Positions 8,475-34,449 of a stretch of DNA of 35,593 nt are shown here, in pieces. The DNA is from a virus. Within the stretch, counting starts at the first letter, position 1, and each line of letters opens with the position of its first letter. A program made the translations under genes and the position numbers. Location of the stretch: IMG/VR virus record IMGVR_UViG_3300037502_002275, positions 1 through 35,593 of that record; one strand, 5' to 3'. The notes under the pieces were generated by a model. It worked only from the letters and a program-made list of their open reading frames with translations. It was not told the DNA's origin and did not search any database.

Positions 8475-8873
8475 TTATTCCAGGGCGTCCAAATCGTCGT
8501 GGGTGTTTGCCGAATTAATTGCACCCATTTCAGTCTCAAACACTACTCGGGCTGCGTCAACAACATCTGCATCGTATTGAGTTTCCGGGTACTGGTCGGT
8601 TTGCTTGCGGATCTCAGCCTGAACAATCTGGGAAAACTTAAACTTTGCCTGCTCTTGTAAACCGACTTTACGCTCATCAACAGTGACGTCGCGGACGCCC
8701 CAGACAATCTCGACCGGGTCTTTTGTCAAATCAAATGAGTGTGAAGTGTACTGCTGGCGGTTAGTAATGGCAGGGCGAACCTCAACAGCAGATTTCCATC
8801 CGGCTTCACCAGCAGGAGGCTGCGTATCCCAAACTTGAATTACTTCGTTGTTAACAATTTTTACAAATAACAT
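8475..8873 (-). CDS. Hypothetical protein at the end of the fibre module
   Basis: The 132-residue protein starts at an ATG with a good AGGAG site 8 nt upstream. It begins MLFVKIVNNEVIQVWDTQPP, a short beta N-terminus, and has a C-terminal helical part (FKFSQIVQAEIRKQTDQYP). The build, a small beta start plus helical tail after a fibre gene, resembles phage fibre-assembly chaperones, and it directly follows the second RCC1 fibre. I cannot name a family. Neither a membrane segment nor a catalytic motif is visible. Confidence 0.65.
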   Translation of the reverse strand: MLFVKIVNNEVIQVWDTQPPAGEAGWKSAVEVRPAITNRQQYTSHSFDLTKDPVEIVWGVRDVTVDERKVGLQEQAKFKFSQIVQAEIRKQTDQYPETQYDADVVDAARVVFETEMGAINSANTHDDLDALE

Positions 8874-8886
8874 AATAATCTCCTAG

Positions 8887-10101
8887 TTAGGGTGTTTTTA
8901 TTGCTGATGACGAATATGCCACCGGTGACTTGGGAAGACGTAACCACGTTGTTAATGATCCAACTTGTTTGGGAGATGAATAACTAGTACTGTTTCCTAA
9001 ACCAAGCACTCCACTTTGTCCGGTTCCAAAATCCCACAATGTTCCATCTGTTTTAATAGCAAATGTTGAAGATCTTGTTGCCGAAACTTTTGACCAATTA
9101 GCTAATGATCCAACTTGCACTGGGGATGATTGATTGGTTGTACTGTTAATACCAAGCTGCCCAACATCATTATGTCCCCACGCCCACAATGTCCCGTCTG
9201 TTTTTACTGCAGCCATATGATTAAGGCCGCAAGCAACATTTGCCCAATTAGTTAATGATCCAACCTGAGCCGGAGATGAACGGTAAATGGTGGAATTTAG
9301 TCCTAATTGACCATATGCGTTATAACCCCAAGTCCAAAGAGTTCCATCTGTTTTTATTGCCGCAGAAAATCCAAAACCGCAAGCAACATTTGCCCAATTA
9401 GTTAATGATCCAACTTGTTTGGGTGACGAATAATCAGTTGAGTTATTAAACCCAAGTTGACCATATTGATTTTGGCCCCAAGCCCATAAAGTTCCGTCGG
9501 TTTTTGTTGCTATAGCAAAATTAAATCCACAAGCAACTTGAGACCAACTGGTTAAAGAGCCAACTTGAACTGGAGAGTTATATTGAGTTGTGTTTCCAAG
9601 ACCTAATTGACCATTAGAGTTACGGCCCCAAGACCAAAGCGTTCCGTTTGTTTTAACAGAAACAACATGCCCATATCCACAGGCAACATATAACCAATTT
9701 GTTAAAGCGCCAAGTTGAGTCGGAGATGATCTGTCTCCCGGACCGCCGGTTCCAAGCCTTCCATTTCCGTTATAACCCCAAGACCAAATAGTTCCATCTG
9801 TTTTTGTTGATACTGAAAAATATGTTCCAGAGGCAATATTTAACCAATTGGTTAAAGTTCCTACTTGTTTTGGAGAGTTATATTGCGTAGTGTTTCCAAG
9901 ACCTAATTCTCCGTAAAGATTAGAACCCCAAACCCACAGCTGTTTTTCTAAAACCGGTTTAGGCCACAACCCCTGTTTTGAATACGCCAATGCCTGGTCC
10001 ATTGTCCAGACACCGGGAGCGGATCCGCCCTCTCCATCTATAGGGCCAGTAACCGTTGGCGGCGATTTAGTAATAAACCCGCCGATGTATTGCTGACTCA
10101 T
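8887..10101 (-). CDS. RCC1-type seven-bladed beta-propeller, virion-linked (copy B)
   Basis: After an N-terminal segment of about 55 residues containing PIDGEGGSAPGVW, a motif I associate with virion-attached phage proteins, the 404-residue protein is made of seven RCC1 repeats. Each carries W-x-W-G-x-N-x-x-G-x-L-G and a T-D-G-T-L-W hinge; the last blade is degenerate (DFGTGQSGVLG). RCC1 propellers bind proteins, DNA or lipids and have no fixed enzymatic role. The gene overlaps the sulfotransferase fusion by 4 nt (ATGA). It is richer in A+T (about 38% G+C in 9361-9420) than the lysis genes (about 53% in 7861-7920). A receptor-binding or decoration role is inferred. Confidence 0.85.
   Translation of the reverse strand: MSQQYIGGFITKSPPTVTGPIDGEGGSAPGVWTMDQALAYSKQGLWPKPVLEKQLWVWGSNLYGELGLGNTTQYNSPKQVGTLTNWLNIASGTYFSVSTKTDGTIWSWGYNGNGRLGTGGPGDRSSPTQLGALTNWLYVACGYGHVVSVKTNGTLWSWGRNSNGQLGLGNTTQYNSPVQVGSLTSWSQVACGFNFAIATKTDGTLWAWGQNQYGQLGFNNSTDYSSPKQVGSLTNWANVACGFGFSAAIKTDGTLWTWGYNAYGQLGLNSTIYRSSPAQVGSLTNWANVACGLNHMAAVKTDGTLWAWGHNDVGQLGINSTTNQSSPVQVGSLANWSKVSATRSSTFAIKTDGTLWDFGTGQSGVLGLGNSTSYSSPKQVGSLTTWLRLPKSPVAYSSSAIKTP
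9227..9414 (-). repeat. Near-identical blade-level DNA repeats in RCC1 gene B
   Basis: A 38-bp segment at 9227-9264 recurs exactly at 9377-9414, 150 bp away, the length of one RCC1 blade. The shared core includes GCCCAATTAGTTAATGATCC. Other blade boundaries show shorter matches of the same kind. Such repeats allow blade gain, loss or exchange by recombination. Confidence 0.8.
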
Positions 10102-11867
10102 TTAACCCTCCGTAGTGCTTGCTTTTCAACAAGCCTGTCTTTTATTTTTGCAAACGGCTCGTCCCATTTACCAAAAACTTCCTGCCTGATTAACTTCATG
10201 GAATCATAGTATGGGCACGTTTCTCCATCCATGGCATACAGAAAATACGGCATAACTGGAGTGACAACCCAAGTCTCTACGCCCATGGCTGCAGATAAAT
10301 GGCTGACCGAAGTGCACGAAGAAATTACCAGATCGCATGAAGCTACGGCCTGTCTTGTATCTTCCCAGCTGTCGAGAGGTACCTTACGCACCCAAGCCGG
10401 GCAGGCTTCGGAACCTTCGTCACGCTGCAAAGATATGAATTCGGCGTCTGCATCTTTGACAGCATCAAACATTAGCTCGTAAGGAAATTTTTTATTGTGC
10501 TCGGCTTCAAATTGGCTGTTGCCCTGCCAGCGCAATCCGATCCGTTTACGCTTGCTCTTGATGACCGTTGGCTTGGGCAGATAGGGTTTACCCGACAGGT
10601 CAGACAGCTCAAACCCCAAAGGTACAACAGCCGACATGCCCTGAACGTAAAAGTCGTGGTAAATGCCAAAGCTGGCCTCGTGCTGGATGACCGCGCTAAC
10701 CCCCTCTACGCCAACGAACAATGACGCCAGCGGGCCTGTGCATGAGACAATCACTTTGCACCCGCGGTCTGCAATTGCCTTGGCATAGCGCACCTGATGT
10801 ATCTGGTCCCCAAGGCCGCCCTCAAGGTACAACATTACGACACCTTTACTTTTGCCATCCCACGGGGGTGTGGGTACATCGGGGGCTTTATTACCAAACA
10901 CGCCAACAATACGGCCTCGGTCCATGAGCTGGTAACCCTTTTGGATTTGGCCCTGACGCAGCAGGTACCAACCACGGTTGTATGCAGCTCGGTGGTTCTG
11001 CGGCTCTTCGCGCTCTAATTTTTTAGCCAGCTCCCATCCTTGCTCAAAATCACCCATTGTGGATGCAGTAAGCTGTAGATCTAAGTCGTGCAGCTCAGGC
11101 GCCGTCTTCGGTGTGTCTAACCAAAACTCCGGCTGACAAAACGTTGAGTAGTGATGTTTTAGTAATTCTTTTGGGTTGTCTGAGTGCTGTTTTGCTAGGA
11201 CCGGCTTAATGTCGTGCATGCCGCCGTAGCCGTGCAAATTCTCATCGTCCTCTTTAACACTGGAGCCATCAATGTTTGCAAAGTCATAATTAAATTCCGG
11301 CAGACCAAGAAAGTCATGGATACGGGCAAGCTGGGCTTTTGGGTCGTTTAGTAGATCGTCATAATCTACAATACAAAAACACTCTGGCATGTATTCGTAA
11401 CCGCTTCTTAAAGAGATATACGAAGCTTTAAGATGGTCCGCCAGCTGACCGTTGTACATAAAGTCATCTAAATCTGCCGGCTTGGCTACTCGCACAAAAG
11501 ACGCCATGCAATCTGGTATTGAGCGAACAGTGGCAATTATTTTGGGGGCGCGGCCAAGAACCTGAGTCATGGCCTGCATAATCACCGGAATAGGCCATCC
11601 ACGGCCTTTGTCAATAATTACAGGTTTATCGGTGCTTTCGTAAAATGCGTCAATTGCGCCACGCATAGTCTGAGCAAGAAGTTTTCGCTCAGGGTCATTC
11701 TCATTTAACAATCCAGCAGAGTGCCAGGTATTAGCCAGCCCATCCAAAGCATGAACCAAACCCGACGTGGTTGAGACATGCGTCATCGGGTTTTGGTTCA
11801 AGATTGCCGCAAGCACCGTTGAGCCGGATCGCGGTACACCAGAAAGAAAATGAAGTTGTTTGTTCAT
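10098..11867 (-). CDS. Sulfotransferase / GT9-like glycosyltransferase fusion
   Basis: The 589-residue protein has two enzyme halves. Residues 1 to about 255 are a PAPS-dependent sulfotransferase: the 5'-phosphosulfate loop GVPRSGSTVLA at 10-20 and the 3'-phosphate segment TVRSIPDCMASF at 113-124 are clear. Residues about 265-330 look like TPR-type helices. Residues about 340-589 resemble GT9 or heptosyltransferase-like enzymes: GGLGDQIHQVRYA at 350-362, IGLRWQGN at 443-450 and CDLVISSCTSVSHLSAAMG at 511-529. It would move sulfate and possibly a sugar onto a glycan or protein. It starts in the stop of RCC1 copy A (TAATG) and overlaps RCC1 copy B by 4 nt, so the three are coupled. Targets are unknown. 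Confidence 0.85.
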   Translation of the reverse strand: MNKQLHFLSGVPRSGSTVLAAILNQNPMTHVSTTSGLVHALDGLANTWHSAGLLNENDPERKLLAQTMRGAIDAFYESTDKPVIIDKGRGWPIPVIMQAMTQVLGRAPKIIATVRSIPDCMASFVRVAKPADLDDFMYNGQLADHLKASYISLRSGYEYMPECFCIVDYDDLLNDPKAQLARIHDFLGLPEFNYDFANIDGSSVKEDDENLHGYGGMHDIKPVLAKQHSDNPKELLKHHYSTFCQPEFWLDTPKTAPELHDLDLQLTASTMGDFEQGWELAKKLEREEPQNHRAAYNRGWYLLRQGQIQKGYQLMDRGRIVGVFGNKAPDVPTPPWDGKSKGVVMLYLEGGLGDQIHQVRYAKAIADRGCKVIVSCTGPLASLFVGVEGVSAVIQHEASFGIYHDFYVQGMSAVVPLGFELSDLSGKPYLPKPTVIKSKRKRIGLRWQGNSQFEAEHNKKFPYELMFDAVKDADAEFISLQRDEGSEACPAWVRKVPLDSWEDTRQAVASCDLVISSCTSVSHLSAAMGVETWVVTPVMPYFLYAMDGETCPYYDSMKLIRQEVFGKWDEPFAKIKDRLVEKQALRRVK

Positions 11868-13078
11868 TAAGGGGTTTTTATTGCGAATGACGAAAAATTA
11901 TCGGTGTTTGTTTTGGGTAGTTTTATCCAAGTTGTTAAAGCCCCAATTTGAACCGGGGATGACCGATCAGTTGTGTTTCCGGTTCCCAATTGTCCTAAAT
12001 TATTTCTACCCCATCCCCATAATGTTTTGTCTGTTTTTGTAGAAATAACATGGTTTGCCCCGCAACTTACCTGATACCAGTTTGTCAAAGCGCCAACCTG
12101 TTTTGGGGAGGAGTAATAAGTGGCGTTATTTAAACCAAGTTCACCATATACATTACGGCCCCAAGTCCACATTGTTCCGTCTGTTTTGACTGCGGCGGAA
12201 GAAAAAGTAGTTCCACCCATAAAATACCAATTAGTTAAAGCTCCAACTTGATTCGGAGATGAGCGATATGTTGTGTTTCCGGTTCCAAGTTGCCCGTAAT
12301 CATTCCGACCCCAGGCCCATAATGTTCCATCGGTTTTTGTAACAAGCGCGTGATACGGCCCACACCCAAGTTTGTACCAGTCTGTTAAGGCACCAATTTG
12401 TTTTGGAGAAGAATAGTATGTTGTGTTATTAAGCCCAAGCTGGCCGTATACGTTATTTCCCCACGCCCACAATGTCCCGTCTGTTTTTAAAGCCATTGTG
12501 TAGCTGTAGCCACAAGAAACGCTAGACCAGTTTGTTAATGCGCCAACTTGCACAGGTGATGATCGATTTGTTGTATCACCAAGACCTAATTGACCGGAAT
12601 TGTTTCGGCCCCAAGCCCATAATGTGCCGTCAGTTTTAACTGCTACGGTATAAGCGTAACCGCAGACAACGCTTAGCCAATTGGTTAATGCCCCAACTTG
12701 TATTGGCGAATCTTGGTCGGTTGTGTTTCCAGTTCCAAGCTGCCCAGAAATATTGTTCCCCCACGCCCAAAGAGTGCCATCGGTTTTAATAGCTGCCGAA
12801 AAACTAGCTGAAGCGGACAGGGTCGTCCAATTTGTTAAAGACCCTACTTGTTGTGGGGAAGAATAATTGGTGATATTGCCTATGCCCAATTGACCAAAAC
12901 TGTTTCTGCCCCACGACCACATTTGGCCTTGTAAAATAGGTTTGGGCCACACGCTTGAATTTTGAAGCTGTTGCTCTATCGTCCATATACCAGACGCCGA
13001 TCCCCCTTCGCCGTCAACAGGCGGCGTGATTGTTGGGGGCGTCGCTGATATTACGGCGCCTTTATATCTCATCGACAT
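11867..13078 (-). CDS. RCC1-type seven-bladed beta-propeller, virion-linked (copy A)
   Basis: The 403-residue protein has an N-terminal linker with PVDGEGGSASGIW, closely related to that of copy B, then seven RCC1 blades. Each has a W-x-W-G-R/N-N-x-x-G-Q-L-G segment plus a K-T-D-G-T-L/M-W hinge. The blades are very similar to each other, which indicates recent internal duplication. ATG follows AGGAG by 6 nt; the first codons, ATGTCGATGA, are shared with two other fibre genes (23045 and 15482). It is a paralogue of the gene at 8887-10101, and the sulfotransferase fusion lies between them. Likely a fibre tip or decoration; ligand unknown. Confidence 0.85.
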   Translation of the reverse strand: MSMRYKGAVISATPPTITPPVDGEGGSASGIWTIEQQLQNSSVWPKPILQGQMWSWGRNSFGQLGIGNITNYSSPQQVGSLTNWTTLSASASFSAAIKTDGTLWAWGNNISGQLGTGNTTDQDSPIQVGALTNWLSVVCGYAYTVAVKTDGTLWAWGRNNSGQLGLGDTTNRSSPVQVGALTNWSSVSCGYSYTMALKTDGTLWAWGNNVYGQLGLNNTTYYSSPKQIGALTDWYKLGCGPYHALVTKTDGTLWAWGRNDYGQLGTGNTTYRSSPNQVGALTNWYFMGGTTFSSAAVKTDGTMWTWGRNVYGELGLNNATYYSSPKQVGALTNWYQVSCGANHVISTKTDKTLWGWGRNNLGQLGTGNTTDRSSPVQIGALTTWIKLPKTNTDNFSSFAIKTP

Positions 13079-13090
13079 GAGACGCTCCTA

Positions 13091-13468
13091 TTACGAAGAG
13101 ATTTCTTCGTAACTAATTGTGTATGCAATTCCGCTAGATGTTCCGCTTGTCACAACAATTGACTTGTCCTCTTCCAAATAAATGGCCGTGGTTTTGTCGG
13201 TGACAATCAACGATGCGTCAGCAGGCACAGAGATAGTCGAGGCAATCGGGTAGCTTGTGCCCGACCCAGCTGCTGCTGTGTTGATTGAAATCGTTGTATC
13301 AACAGCGCTAGAACCGTTGACGTTGGCGGCAACAATCTGGTTAATTTTTAAAACCTTGCCGCTTGCGGCTGAGTTAGCCAGCAAGACGTTTGCCGTCGTA
13401 TTAGCCGGTGTTAAATAAGTCGTCTTACCATAAATGGTTGTGACGTTTACTATATTGGGGGCTGCCAT
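13091..13468 (-). CDS. Small beta-rich virion protein
   Basis: The 125-residue protein is rich in Thr, Ser, Ala and Val and has alternating beta-type sequence (for example TIYGKTTYLTPANTTANVLL). It lacks Cys, signal peptide or catalytic motif. ATG is preceded by AGGAGC. The small size, composition and location in a run of similar fibre-associated genes suggest a decoration or fibre-base protein. I recognise the general type from environmental phage genomes but can name no function. Confidence 0.65.
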   Translation of the reverse strand: MAAPNIVNVTTIYGKTTYLTPANTTANVLLANSAASGKVLKINQIVAANVNGSSAVDTTISINTAAAGSGTSYPIASTISVPADASLIVTDKTTAIYLEEDKSIVVTSGTSSGIAYTISYEEISS

Positions 13469-18741: not shown

Positions 18742-19788
18742 TTACAAGTCCTTATAAAACTTTAAGTTTGTTTTTAATCTTTCAATTTCCGGGGCCATCT
18801 CTACTGCTATCTCCCCGTGTTTAACTGCTTCATCTTTTAACTTCAAATTGTAGGCGCAGAGCGCCAAAATATCGTGGGGTAGGTATCCCCATGCTGCTGC
18901 GTTACGAGTGTGCTGTGATAGGTTGTTATTTATCCCCAGCGCGGTCTTTGCCGCTGCGTAACCCTCTGCCCACACGCTGTGTTTGTAGCAGGAGTACGCC
19001 AGCTCGTACCAGTTCTCTCGTATCTCCGGAGCCTCTGCGCAGGCTAGTCGAAACCACTTCAACCCGTCTTCGTTCAGATTCTCCGTCGCACCGCCAATCA
19101 TGCGCATCGCATGACTTCTTTCCAACGACCAGATTGCATTTGGCAGCGTTAGGTACCGCTGCAGCTCCGTGATCGCTTCCTTCCACTTCTGGTGGTAGGT
19201 ATACTCGCGACCAAGGTAATACGCCATCCGGTAGCAGCTTGGGTCATTCTTTGCACCAAACTGCAGTAAATCTAAGTAGCTTCCCCGCGACTTGGTAGGG
19301 TCCGGGTGGTGCTCCATCAGCACATCGTTTGTGTGCGCTACCTTGTCCAACATGCGCGGATCGGGTGTTATGTACTCGTGGCAGGGATACTTCCAGTGGT
19401 ACCCCATCCGGGCATGTATCCTTGAAGGATAAAATATAAGCCCGTTGCCTGCATCAAACCCAAAACTTAAACGCGTGTGTCCGTCACCAAAAATCCGCTC
19501 AACGTAGTCTCGCCAACCTGGTTTTAAGACCTCATCCAGGTCCATCGAGACGCACACATCGACATCTCTTGGCACCAGGGCCAGGGCTGTGTCGCGAGCC
19601 TTATCGAAACGCCATGGCACTACAGTTATTTCATAAACCTGCGCGCCACACTCTTTTGCTATCTCGACTGTTTTGTCTTCCGATCCAGTGTCCGCTATGA
19701 CAATTAGGTCTGCGTCCTTGGCTGAATCACAAAATCTTTTTACGTGCTTTTCTTCGTTTTTACTGATCGCATATACCGCAATCTTCAT
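18742..19788 (-). CDS. Family 2 glycosyltransferase with C-terminal TPR-like repeats
   Basis: The ATG at 19788 is chosen over a TTG one codon upstream because AAGGGG lies 5 nt before it. The 348-residue protein begins MKIAVYAISKNEEKHVKRF, a GT2 nucleotide-sugar site start, then DTGSEDKT, and has the metal-binding D-x-D as MDLDE near residues 82-86. Helical TPR-like repeats fill about residues 165-345. GT2 plus TPR is typical of bacterial protein and glycan glycosyltransferases. It follows the large collagen-like fibre gene by 13 nt. Gly-Pro-Thr collagen is a known O-glycosylation substrate in Bacillus BclA, so glycosylation of the neighbouring fibre is a reasonable inference. Confidence 0.85.
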   Translation of the reverse strand: MKIAVYAISKNEEKHVKRFCDSAKDADLIVIADTGSEDKTVEIAKECGAQVYEITVVPWRFDKARDTALALVPRDVDVCVSMDLDEVLKPGWRDYVERIFGDGHTRLSFGFDAGNGLIFYPSRIHARMGYHWKYPCHEYITPDPRMLDKVAHTNDVLMEHHPDPTKSRGSYLDLLQFGAKNDPSCYRMAYYLGREYTYHQKWKEAITELQRYLTLPNAIWSLERSHAMRMIGGATENLNEDGLKWFRLACAEAPEIRENWYELAYSCYKHSVWAEGYAAAKTALGINNNLSQHTRNAAAWGYLPHDILALCAYNLKLKDEAVKHGEIAVEMAPEIERLKTNLKFYKDL

Positions 19789-19801
19789 CAAAACCCCTTA
19801 G

Positions 19802-21761
<1,960 letters not shown>

Positions 21762-32010: not shown

Positions 32011-32044
32011 CTACTTATGCACAAAGGCAGGGAGGCGCGCCCTA
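32011..32044 (-). promoter_or_regulatory. Promoter-like element P5
   Basis: On the minus strand TAGGGCG (32044-32038), 16 nt, then TGCATAAGTAG (32021-32011). TAG is the stop codon of the terminase gene. CTCCCT and AGGGAG (32001-32006, 32029-32034) bracket the -10-like part. It lies 15 nt before the ATG at 31995. Confidence 0.75.
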
Positions 32045-33478
32045 TACCGCATAGGGGTTGTAACGCTGCTTTTTGTCGTCCGCGTAAGAGTAGTCCCTTG
32101 CCGGCAGGGGGTCTAGCTGCAGCCATCCAGAATCGCGCAGCACACGCAAAGCCTGTGACAGGCTGTCCACGTAGTCATCATGCCCACCCGACTCTGGGAA
32201 CGAACACACCTGGCGCATAAATCTCTTCGTCCACGAGGCAAACTCTCCCGTCTTCTCCAGGTCCTCGGGGATGTAGACCTTACCCTTAGCTATCAGCGGC
32301 GCGACGATGTTCATACGCTGCACCTTATCCGCGCGGCCTGGGTTGTATGCACGTACAGGCACCCCAGCACTTTGAAGCTCCTGGATGAGCGAGATACCTG
32401 CCGACTTATCCTCCATCAGGATCAGGTCTGCCTTCCTGCCTTTAGCGAATGTGTTGTCCGCTCCGTAGACGACCTCCTTGAAATCGTTGATTACCTTCTT
32501 TCGCAGCTCGGGGTATGAGAGGTGGGCATCCCACGCATCTAACAAGATGACACACGTCCCGCCATCTGTCTGTTCAAACACGCCCCAGACCTCGCAAGCC
32601 GTTGGGTCGTTGTGTGTCTTCTCGCTGGTAGCCGGATCGTATGAGGCAATCACATATTCAAGCGTCGGGGTCTCCTTTTTGGCCGGCCACATGCGGAACC
32701 ACTTACGCTTCACAATACCAGTATCCTCTGGGTCCAGGATCTCACCATAAATCTCCTGCTTACCCAGGTCGGTGCCTTCATACGTCTCCAGCTGCTTGAA
32801 GAACGTGGCCGAGAGGTTTGACTTGTTGTCGTACGATGAGGCGTTCACGACATACACATCGCCACCAACCTTGCCCTCGTTCAAGTCCACGATCAACTCC
32901 CGCGGTTTGGGGGTGGTCGTGATGATCTGCTGCACTCGCTTGATCTTTGGGTCCTTCAAACGCAGCGTAAACTGCACGCCATCATAAGCATCGTCCAAAT
33001 ACTCAAACGCGCACAGCTCGTCGAACCAGGCTCCATGAAACTGCTTACCACGATAACGCTCCGGCTCCGATCCAGGTATGCCCTGGATAATCGAGTCGTT
33101 GATTAACGTGATCTCAAACAGCGATTTGTTGTAATCCCGAATCAGGGACTGCGGTATGATGTTAAGCAGCCCAGAATCACCCTCAAAACACGTCGCCCGT
33201 ATGTCGTTTGATGTCGGTGCCGTCACCAACCACCGAGTTCCTGGATATTTCCAAGCCCGGATCCCAATCCAGTGGCTCGCGGTGTGCGTTTTGCCTGATC
33301 CTCGGCCGGCAAGCATCAGGAAGGTGTCGTACTCGCCATCTTCCGGCTCCCTTTGGTGCGGAAGTGCCTCAATTTCCCACTTTACCTGCCACAGGGCCGC
33401 ATCAAGCTGCGGTTTGGGCCAGTGCTTGTTGTTTTTCGCAAAGTCCGCGAGGACTTTCTCTTGTTTTTTGGTCAACAT
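32042..33478 (-). CDS. terL: Terminase large subunit
   Basis: The 478-residue protein has the full terminase layout. The ATPase part has Walker A LAGRGSGKTHT (57-67), Walker B GAWFDEL (149-155) and the coupling motif ITTTPKPRE (186-194). The RNase H-like nuclease has Asp281 (SYDPATSEK), Glu356-Asp357 (LMEDKSAG) and HDDYVD (433-438). It pumps DNA into the procapsid through the portal and cuts concatemers. The start ATG lies inside the last codons of the upstream intein-like gene (7-nt overlap), so translation is coupled. No inserted intein interrupts the enzyme. No small terminase is recognisable in the window. Confidence 0.95.
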   Translation of the reverse strand: MLTKKQEKVLADFAKNNKHWPKPQLDAALWQVKWEIEALPHQREPEDGEYDTFLMLAGRGSGKTHTASHWIGIRAWKYPGTRWLVTAPTSNDIRATCFEGDSGLLNIIPQSLIRDYNKSLFEITLINDSIIQGIPGSEPERYRGKQFHGAWFDELCAFEYLDDAYDGVQFTLRLKDPKIKRVQQIITTTPKPRELIVDLNEGKVGGDVYVVNASSYDNKSNLSATFFKQLETYEGTDLGKQEIYGEILDPEDTGIVKRKWFRMWPAKKETPTLEYVIASYDPATSEKTHNDPTACEVWGVFEQTDGGTCVILLDAWDAHLSYPELRKKVINDFKEVVYGADNTFAKGRKADLILMEDKSAGISLIQELQSAGVPVRAYNPGRADKVQRMNIVAPLIAKGKVYIPEDLEKTGEFASWTKRFMRQVCSFPESGGHDDYVDSLSQALRVLRDSGWLQLDPLPARDYSYADDKKQRYNPYAV

Positions 33479-34449
33479 ACCGGAATAAAACCCTCTCCGA
33501 CTACAATTTGGTCGTCCGCCACCACATGAACGCAGAATTTCGGACCTATTTTCTCCACTTTTCGCACAAATCTGCGCGTGTGGGGTCCATTTTTGCCATT
33601 TTTCACAAAATAAAGCTTGTAACTAGCCCTATCCTCACGCTTATCGAGCCATGTTTTGTATCCCAGCGACTCCAGCAGCGCCTGGTAGCGCTTTGTCACG
33701 TCCAATCTCTTGTCAATCAGCGCGTACTTCTTGATGTTTGGGTGGTACATGCAGGCGCCGCTTTCCATCAACCCATCAAGAAACTCCTGCCGTTGCTCCG
33801 GTGACGACAGGATGTAATAAAACGGGACGTTTTTCGGTATCTCCGTCCCCGCAAACAGGAAACTGTCCTTCACCGAGGGCCGAAAGTCCAGCACCCTCGT
33901 TCCATTCTTGCGCTTCCTTGTCAGTATCGTGAACCCATGACCGCGCAGGCGCTTTCTGACGCGCTCTACGTCCATAGTCCTGACATAGTGCCGGCCGGTC
34001 AGGCCTAAGCTTCCAAACCATATACCAAACACATAGGGTGGGACGGGCAGGTCAACGTGTGGGAACGCAATCGGATCCACGTTTTGGATGGAGTACTCCC
34101 ATTTCCCATCCATTCTTTTGAGCGGGCCCTTGTGCAGCTCTTTGGTTGTCCTTTGTGCAAGATTGCTCCTGTTAGGTTTTGCATACTTCTTTCCGCGGTT
34201 CTTCAGCCATTTACTGAAAGCATCTCGGTAGTACTTGGTCTGCAGTTTGAGAGTCAGCCTTTTGTCTCCCTCGACTGCCAGGCCATCATCAAACTCCACC
34301 CGGTAGCACGAGTCTGGCATGTAGGTCTGCACGACCTTTATGGTCTGGGCGCCGCCCCTTGGATTGAAGACGACATCCCCCGCTCTTAGGTCCGTTGCCA
34401 GGACCCAACCATTAGCCGTAGGTACCGGTGTGTCGGACGTCAATGCCAT
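33472..34449 (-). CDS. Stand-alone Hint (intein-like) protein with degenerate LAGLIDADG endonuclease
   Basis: The 325-residue protein is intein-like from end to end. Residues 2-24 (ALTSDTPVPTANGW, then DLRAGDVV) match intein block A with Ala in place of Cys or Ser. The block B region (VEFDDGLAVEGDKRLTL, 51-67) lacks the usual His. PYVFGIWFGSLG (138-149) and EFLDGLMESGA (222-232) look like the two LAGLIDADG motifs, the first without its acidic residue. The C-terminus (CVHVVADDQIVVGEGFIPVC) matches blocks F and G but stops at Cys with no His-Asn. It has its own AAGGAA site and overlaps terL by 7 nt, so it is not spliced out of terL. Splicing is unlikely; DNA cleavage is uncertain. Confidence 0.8.
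   Translation of the reverse strand: MALTSDTPVPTANGWVLATDLRAGDVVFNPRGGAQTIKVVQTYMPDSCYRVEFDDGLAVEGDKRLTLKLQTKYYRDAFSKWLKNRGKKYAKPNRSNLAQRTTKELHKGPLKRMDGKWEYSIQNVDPIAFPHVDLPVPPYVFGIWFGSLGLTGRHYVRTMDVERVRKRLRGHGFTILTRKRKNGTRVLDFRPSVKDSFLFAGTEIPKNVPFYYILSSPEQRQEFLDGLMESGACMYHPNIKKYALIDKRLDVTKRYQALLESLGYKTWLDKREDRASYKLYFVKNGKNGPHTRRFVRKVEKIGPKFCVHVVADDQIVVGEGFIPVC

Follow-up and report, generated by a model that had tools for sequence, protein, structure and literature searches.

The window, a virus fragment of 35.6 kb, encoded a portal protein and a terminase resembling those of Caulobacter, Roseobacter and Pelagibacter phages. A near-identity DNA search against deposited phages gave no match to it. 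A sequence-only reading had described three overlapping genes in this window, and the open reading frames (ORFs) were present as described, on the minus strand. The first (11867–13078, 403 aa) and the third (8887–10101, 404 aa) encoded RCC1 proteins, here called RCC1-A and RCC1-B. The gene between them (10098–11867, 589 aa) encoded a fusion of a sulfotransferase (ST), a TPR linker and a glycosyltransferase (GT). At the junction of RCC1-A and the fusion (CTTAATGAAC), the TAA stop and the ATG start overlapped by 1 nt (TAATG), and at the junction of the fusion and RCC1-B (TTAAATGAGT) the overlap was 4 nt (ATGA). The start of RCC1-B was preceded by GGAGG. No Shine-Dalgarno sequence was visible at the start of the fusion gene, so its translation probably depends on that of RCC1-A. 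The cassette was flanked upstream by w14 (13091–13468, minus strand), a small conserved structural gene 59% identical to a 'putative lectin' of phage DSL-LC04, and downstream by the conserved gene w10 (8475–8873, minus strand), both found at these positions in most relatives. w10 had no match in Pfam or PHROG; that it encodes a fibre-assembly chaperone is a guess.

Both RCC1 proteins contained seven repeats (Pfam RCC1, E values of 1e-77 to 1e-82; RCC1-A 9.9e-83, RCC1-B 4.3e-77). The AF2 model of RCC1-A (pLDDT 90.0, pTM 0.85) was a closed seven-bladed propeller with structural matches to RCC1, UVR8 and HERC2 (Z 48–51), including the HERC2 RLD (Z 51.5) and human RCC1 (Z 48). Its first ~48 residues (12935–13078, minus strand; MSMRYKG..SATPPT..GIWT..Q..WPKP) were predicted with lower confidence and carried a motif common to RCC1-B. 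The shared propeller N-termini pointed out from the sequence were supported, as a modular segment. Outside RCC1 proteins, nothing meaningful matched this motif in the first locus set; it was found in phage DSL-LC04 and in the set of loci anchored on w14. In DSL-LC04, the gene following the w14 homologue began with a segment of the RCC1-A type (50% over 34 residues, E 2e-6) and continued with a Gly-rich domain, and this fibre locus contained no ST–GT gene. In w14-anchored loci, similar N-termini preceded several distal domains. Such a distribution would fit a docking part with a swappable tip. The common fibre N-terminus behind w14 headed Gly-rich, FN3-like, kelch-like and RCC1 domains (L446, 2959–5032; L447–L522), and a side reading of the w14 locus is that it is a site of fibre-tip swapping. 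The late fibre operon, the docking N-terminus and the detection of an RCC1 protein in virions of phage GAP32 by mass spectrometry (PMC5259590) suggest that the propellers sit on the virion tail fibre. Many aquatic phages carry seven-bladed propeller proteins, whose place is probably the tail fibre, and the propeller genes are accompanied by genes for enzymes predicted to add sulfate and sugar.

The AlphaFold model of the fusion, built with 68 relatives, had a pLDDT of 92.6 and a pTM of 0.68, which indicates reliable domain predictions but a less certain arrangement of the domains relative to one another. Both halves of the proposed sulfotransferase/glycosyltransferase were recovered in this model. 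Residues 1–258 (11094–11867; this and the following features are on the minus strand) showed the anticipated PAPS-binding fold, with matches to human TPST1 and TPST2 (Z 19–19.6; TPST1 5wrj, Z 19.6, rmsd 3.7 over 241 residues), polyketide-pathway sulfotransferases (Z 15.8) and heparan sulfate 3-OSTs (Z 14.4). Pfam Sulfotransfer_3 matched residues 7–190 (E 1e-14). The 5'-phosphosulfate loop (GVPRSGST, residues 10–17, 11817–11840) was near-invariant in 180 fusions and shared with phage STs, and the 3'-phosphate site (R115-x7-S123, 11499–11525) was invariant both in the 180 fusions and across 10 diverse phage STs. With the fold, the loop and the Arg/Ser pair present, the N-terminal half is best described as a PAPS-dependent sulfotransferase fold, and sulfate transfer is predicted. 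The TPR linker (residues 259–324, 10896–11093) matched the TPR of AspH (Z 11.6, rmsd 1.6 over 66 residues), with a weak Pfam TPR match at residues 270–310. Residues 342–585 (10113–10844) resembled WaaC (2h1h, Z 16.2) and WaaF (Z 15.8) over 230–235 residues, as well as TibC (4rap, Z 15.6), in agreement with the earlier description of a GT9-like half. Since no Pfam GT family, including GT9, matched the fusion at E values up to 0.1, the GT-B fold and GT9-like nature of this domain are drawn from the structure model. Its GGLGD motif (residues 350–354, 10806–10820), in which G351, G353 and D354 were invariant in 180 fusions, is likely the counterpart of the catalytic-Asp loop of WaaC.

The PAPS loop, R115/S123, a D-K-x-R-x-W motif (DK.RGW), H218 and the Asp of GGLGD were invariant or nearly so in the 180 fusions, with an average overall identity of ~80% among 81 fusions. 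Median dN/dS values of 0.04 (ST) and 0.08 (GT) indicated purifying selection. Judged by model and alignments, the ST–GT fusion is real and looks active. H218 was invariant in all phage STs aligned and is a candidate catalytic base. The counterparts of TPST Arg78 and Lys158 were kept as R13 and K87. Glu99 of human TPST2 aligned with Thr34 of the fusion, and Thr occupied this column in all 179 fusions having a residue there. Since the catalytic Glu of TPSTs is replaced, the fusion is TPST-like in fold without being classed as a TPST, its acceptor need not be tyrosine, and tyrosine sulfation was rejected as a claim.

A scan of IMG/VR retrieved 213 relatives of the fusion on more than 200 contigs. 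Around the best 80 of these 213, the order was w14, one or two RCC1 genes, the ST–GT gene, usually one or two further RCC1 genes, and w10; this arrangement recurred in dozens of non-redundant contigs. Among 94 non-identical fusions, an RCC1 gene lay directly upstream in 81 and directly downstream in 44, 38 of the latter with the 4-nt ATGA overlap. The recurrence and the low dN/dS values together indicate that the arrangement is more than chance. The idea of one functional cassette with the propellers was supported, the arrangement being conserved and RCC1 and ST/GT genes co-occurring in the virus database search. A missing PAPS-binding fold or genes that never co-occur, named beforehand as findings against it, were not encountered: the fold is present and the genes occur together. 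Two other statements of the sequence-only reading were not supported. Phage sulfotransferases are not rare, as hundreds of viral contigs carry them, and their genes are common in aquatic phages. The set, for which the reading knew of no description, is not unique either, as its parts recur, unfused, in the deposited genome of cyanophage S-SRM01. A cellular origin of the fusion was considered and set aside: bacterial genomes gave just eight matches, most of them in metagenome bins, and no clear bacterial source; several of the eight adjoined RCC1 genes and are perhaps viral themselves. In some loci, GIY-YIG-type endonuclease genes of differing forms stood exactly between the ST–GT gene and the downstream RCC1 gene (L014, 11776–12330; similar inserted ORFs in L015, L016, L019–L021, L038, L043, L050 and L052).

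Cyanophage S-SRM01, cultured on Synechococcus KCZYC6, carries the same parts in the same neighbourhood, after baseplate wedge and long tail fibre genes, in the order RCC1, TPR-GT, 2OG-Fe(II) oxygenase, RCC1 and sulfotransferase; unlike in the window, its ST and GT are separate genes. The ST, RCC1 and TPR genes were not discussed in the S-SRM01 paper (PMC8557907). The single-cell virus AG-345-E08 had a similar, unfused order (RCC1-GT followed by RCC1-ST), and in BUCT-ZZ01, a phage of S. elongatus PCC 7942, an RCC1 gene was followed by a GT fused to a methyltransferase-like domain, with no ST seen next to it. When 76 GT domains were placed in a tree, the ST–GT fusions formed one clade (support 100). 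A fusion of reverse order, GT–ST, located directly after an RCC1 gene (L223), fell in another clade, which indicates that ST and GT became fused on at least two occasions. Fibre loci often also held GT25, GT2, methyltransferase and 2OG-oxygenase genes. The recurring 2OG-Fe(II) oxygenases (L083, 10941–11399; L200, 5803–6444 and 8277–8909; L446, 5324–5944) suggest that fibre residues may also be hydroxylated. In two loci, RCC1-GT pairs were followed by genes of GT25 (L227, 9707–10390; L221, 6764–7474), a family that includes procollagen galactosyltransferases and LPS enzymes.

RCC1 and enzyme genes were strongly linked whichever of them served as the starting point, and the linkage spanned lineages. 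When GT homologues, mostly of ~30% identity, were retrieved without reference to RCC1, 30 of the 43 non-redundant loci had an RCC1 gene at the position immediately upstream of the GT. No other upstream offset had RCC1 in more than 5 of 28 loci, and the position immediately downstream had it in 2 of 43. Where RCC1 was absent from the position just upstream, a 2OG-type oxygenase-like gene, or another propeller-like or a Gly-rich fibre, often stood there. Conversely, when an S-SRM01 RCC1 protein was used to retrieve loci, 41 of 50 had a GT or ST gene within four genes of RCC1; most of the remaining nine ended at or near a contig edge. The third anchor was w14, a neutral neighbour present whatever the fibre. 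ST/GT genes were found in 13 of 14 non-redundant w14-anchored loci with RCC1, versus 3 of 57 with other distal domains (Fisher p = 1.3e-10, for sequences that are not independent draws). Because this anchor holds the locus position constant, the enzyme appears to follow the RCC1 fibre type. Proximity alone could move enzyme and fibre genes together in one swap, an objection that is weakened by the recurrence across different arrangements.

No ST or GT was annotated beside RCC1 in Littlefix, SP-15, Jenst, LIBA6276, Kaldavass, a Helicobacter prophage, Ppr_SeaP2, PS6, PBECO4 or LIS04. As RCC1 genes of Clostridioides, Pseudomonas, Erwinia, E. coli and Listeria phages occur without the enzymes, RCC1 fibres in general can do without decoration, and the enzyme–propeller module is a feature of certain aquatic phages. 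Some phage STs adjoined other tail proteins. An NxS/T sequon in the conserved loop NTTxYSSPxQVG was considered as the substrate site, being present in 65% of repeats of linked and 25% of repeats of unlinked RCC1 proteins; it was set aside, since the unlinked set consisted of 13 distant proteins and common ancestry explains the excess equally well. In Aphanizomenon phage Yong-DA (L376, ON073792), an RCC1-like match lay among polysaccharide export and sugar transferase genes, an un-phage-like setting.

We propose that the fusion acts in fibre maturation, adding sugar and sulfate to the RCC1 propellers translated together with it, and so makes a decorated tail-fibre tip, a reading to which we assign a probability of about 0.6. 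RCC1-A and RCC1-B would be distal fibre propellers, fixed to the virion via their common N-terminal docking segment. The fusion would be made by ribosomes that have just finished RCC1-A, and would act on the propellers in the host cytoplasm, ahead of assembly. The TPR linker may hold the protein substrate, the GT9-like half would add a sugar, and the TPST-like half would move sulfate from host PAPS onto that sugar or onto a side chain; glycosylation followed by sulfation is the most likely order during fibre maturation. The anionic decoration might then tune receptor binding or protect the fibre. The closest folds include protein-modifying enzymes, namely the TPSTs, TibC and OGT (a TPR plus GT). 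Of the three substrates considered by the sequence-only reading (propellers, other fibres and host surface glycans), the co-variation of the genes appears to favour the propellers. A broader version, held tentatively and at somewhat below even odds, is that a widespread phage system adds both sugar and sulfate to the phage's own RCC1-type receptor-binding propellers by means of a bifunctional enzyme fused at least twice.

The main rival holds that the enzyme modifies a host surface glycan, such as LPS or capsule, late in infection and thereby blocks superinfection or the sticking of progeny to debris; RCC1 genes would then adjoin it because receptor binding and receptor masking co-evolve. The GT half is nearest to LPS heptosyltransferases, heparan sulfate 3-OSTs are among the structural matches of the ST half (Z ~14), and the GT25, GT2 and methyltransferase genes of several loci could build such a glycan. 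We nevertheless consider this rather unlikely, as the enzyme lies within a late fibre operon, is translationally coupled to fibre genes and tracks the fibre type within one locus, and none of the window genes scanned was recognisable as an export or membrane glycan gene. It is also unlikely, and slightly more so, that the substrate is another virion protein, such as the collagen-like fibre, the DUF7483 fibre or w14. Further fibres are encoded nearby in the window, and STs elsewhere among phages come after large tail-spike-like genes, but the w14-anchored relatives mostly lacked the enzyme unless an RCC1 fibre was present, and the collagen-like fibre of the window has its own GT2 gene directly downstream.

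The two halves might instead act separately, with the sugar placed on one substrate and the sulfate on another small molecule or glycan, so that the fusion only secures co-expression. Cyanophage ST and GT genes do occur apart, each beside an RCC1 gene, and one survey counts phage ST among the sulfur-cycle auxiliary genes (PMC13079714). Two independent fusions, both beside RCC1, make this improbable. Least probable by our estimate is that the protein keeps old enzyme folds without catalysis and serves as a fibre chaperone or structural component: the TPR linker and the close pairing with a fibre gene would be compatible with a chaperone, but the PAPS loop, R-x7-S, DK.RGW and GGLGD were near-invariant in 180 fusions against an average identity of ~80%.

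The fusion has counterparts in several known systems. It shares with TPST1/2 (Sulfotransfer_3) the PAPS-binding fold and loops, as its best structural match, and the counterparts of Arg78 and Lys158; unlike them, it has Thr34 for Glu99 and an attached TPR-GT, and is phage-encoded. The GT-B fold and the GGLGD loop with its Asp are common to the GT9 heptosyltransferases WaaC and WaaF and the autotransporter heptosyltransferase TibC, to which the GT half is ~10–15% identical; unlike them, it has no Pfam GT9 match and a TPR in front. O-GlcNAc transferase and SPINDLY (GT41), which act on proteins, likewise have a TPR followed by GT-B, although the TPR stretch of the fusion is short and the whole alignment with OGT poor (Z 10.9, rmsd 14). 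Glycosyltransferases encoded by mycobacteriophages or chloroviruses decorate virion proteins, as proposed here; to our knowledge, neither a sulfotransferase nor an RCC1 propeller takes part in them. We know of no phage with sulfated glycoprotein tail fibres as a class of modification.

In the literature on RCC1, sulfotransferases and phages, no description of this gene set was found. Phage sulfotransferases have been filed as sulfur-metabolism auxiliary genes (PMC13079714) or their role called unclear (PMC10580990), and phage RCC1 proteins were guessed to order DNA (PMC7247149). The strong two-way linkage suggests that the two belong together in a single module for fibre decoration. It merges two open functional questions into one and makes the role of phage sulfotransferases testable. 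Should the proposal hold, glycosylated fibres with post-translational sulfation can take part in the recognition of hosts by phages, and predictions of receptor binding from sequence would miss them.

Two further features of the window were observed. At 18742–19791 and 19802–21418, the collagen-like fibre gene is immediately followed downstream by a gene for a GT2 glycosyltransferase, forming a second fibre-plus-glycosyltransferase pair. Two adjacent overlapping ORFs (32042–33478 and 33472–34449) both matched terminase large subunit families, and are possibly a split or duplicated terminase.
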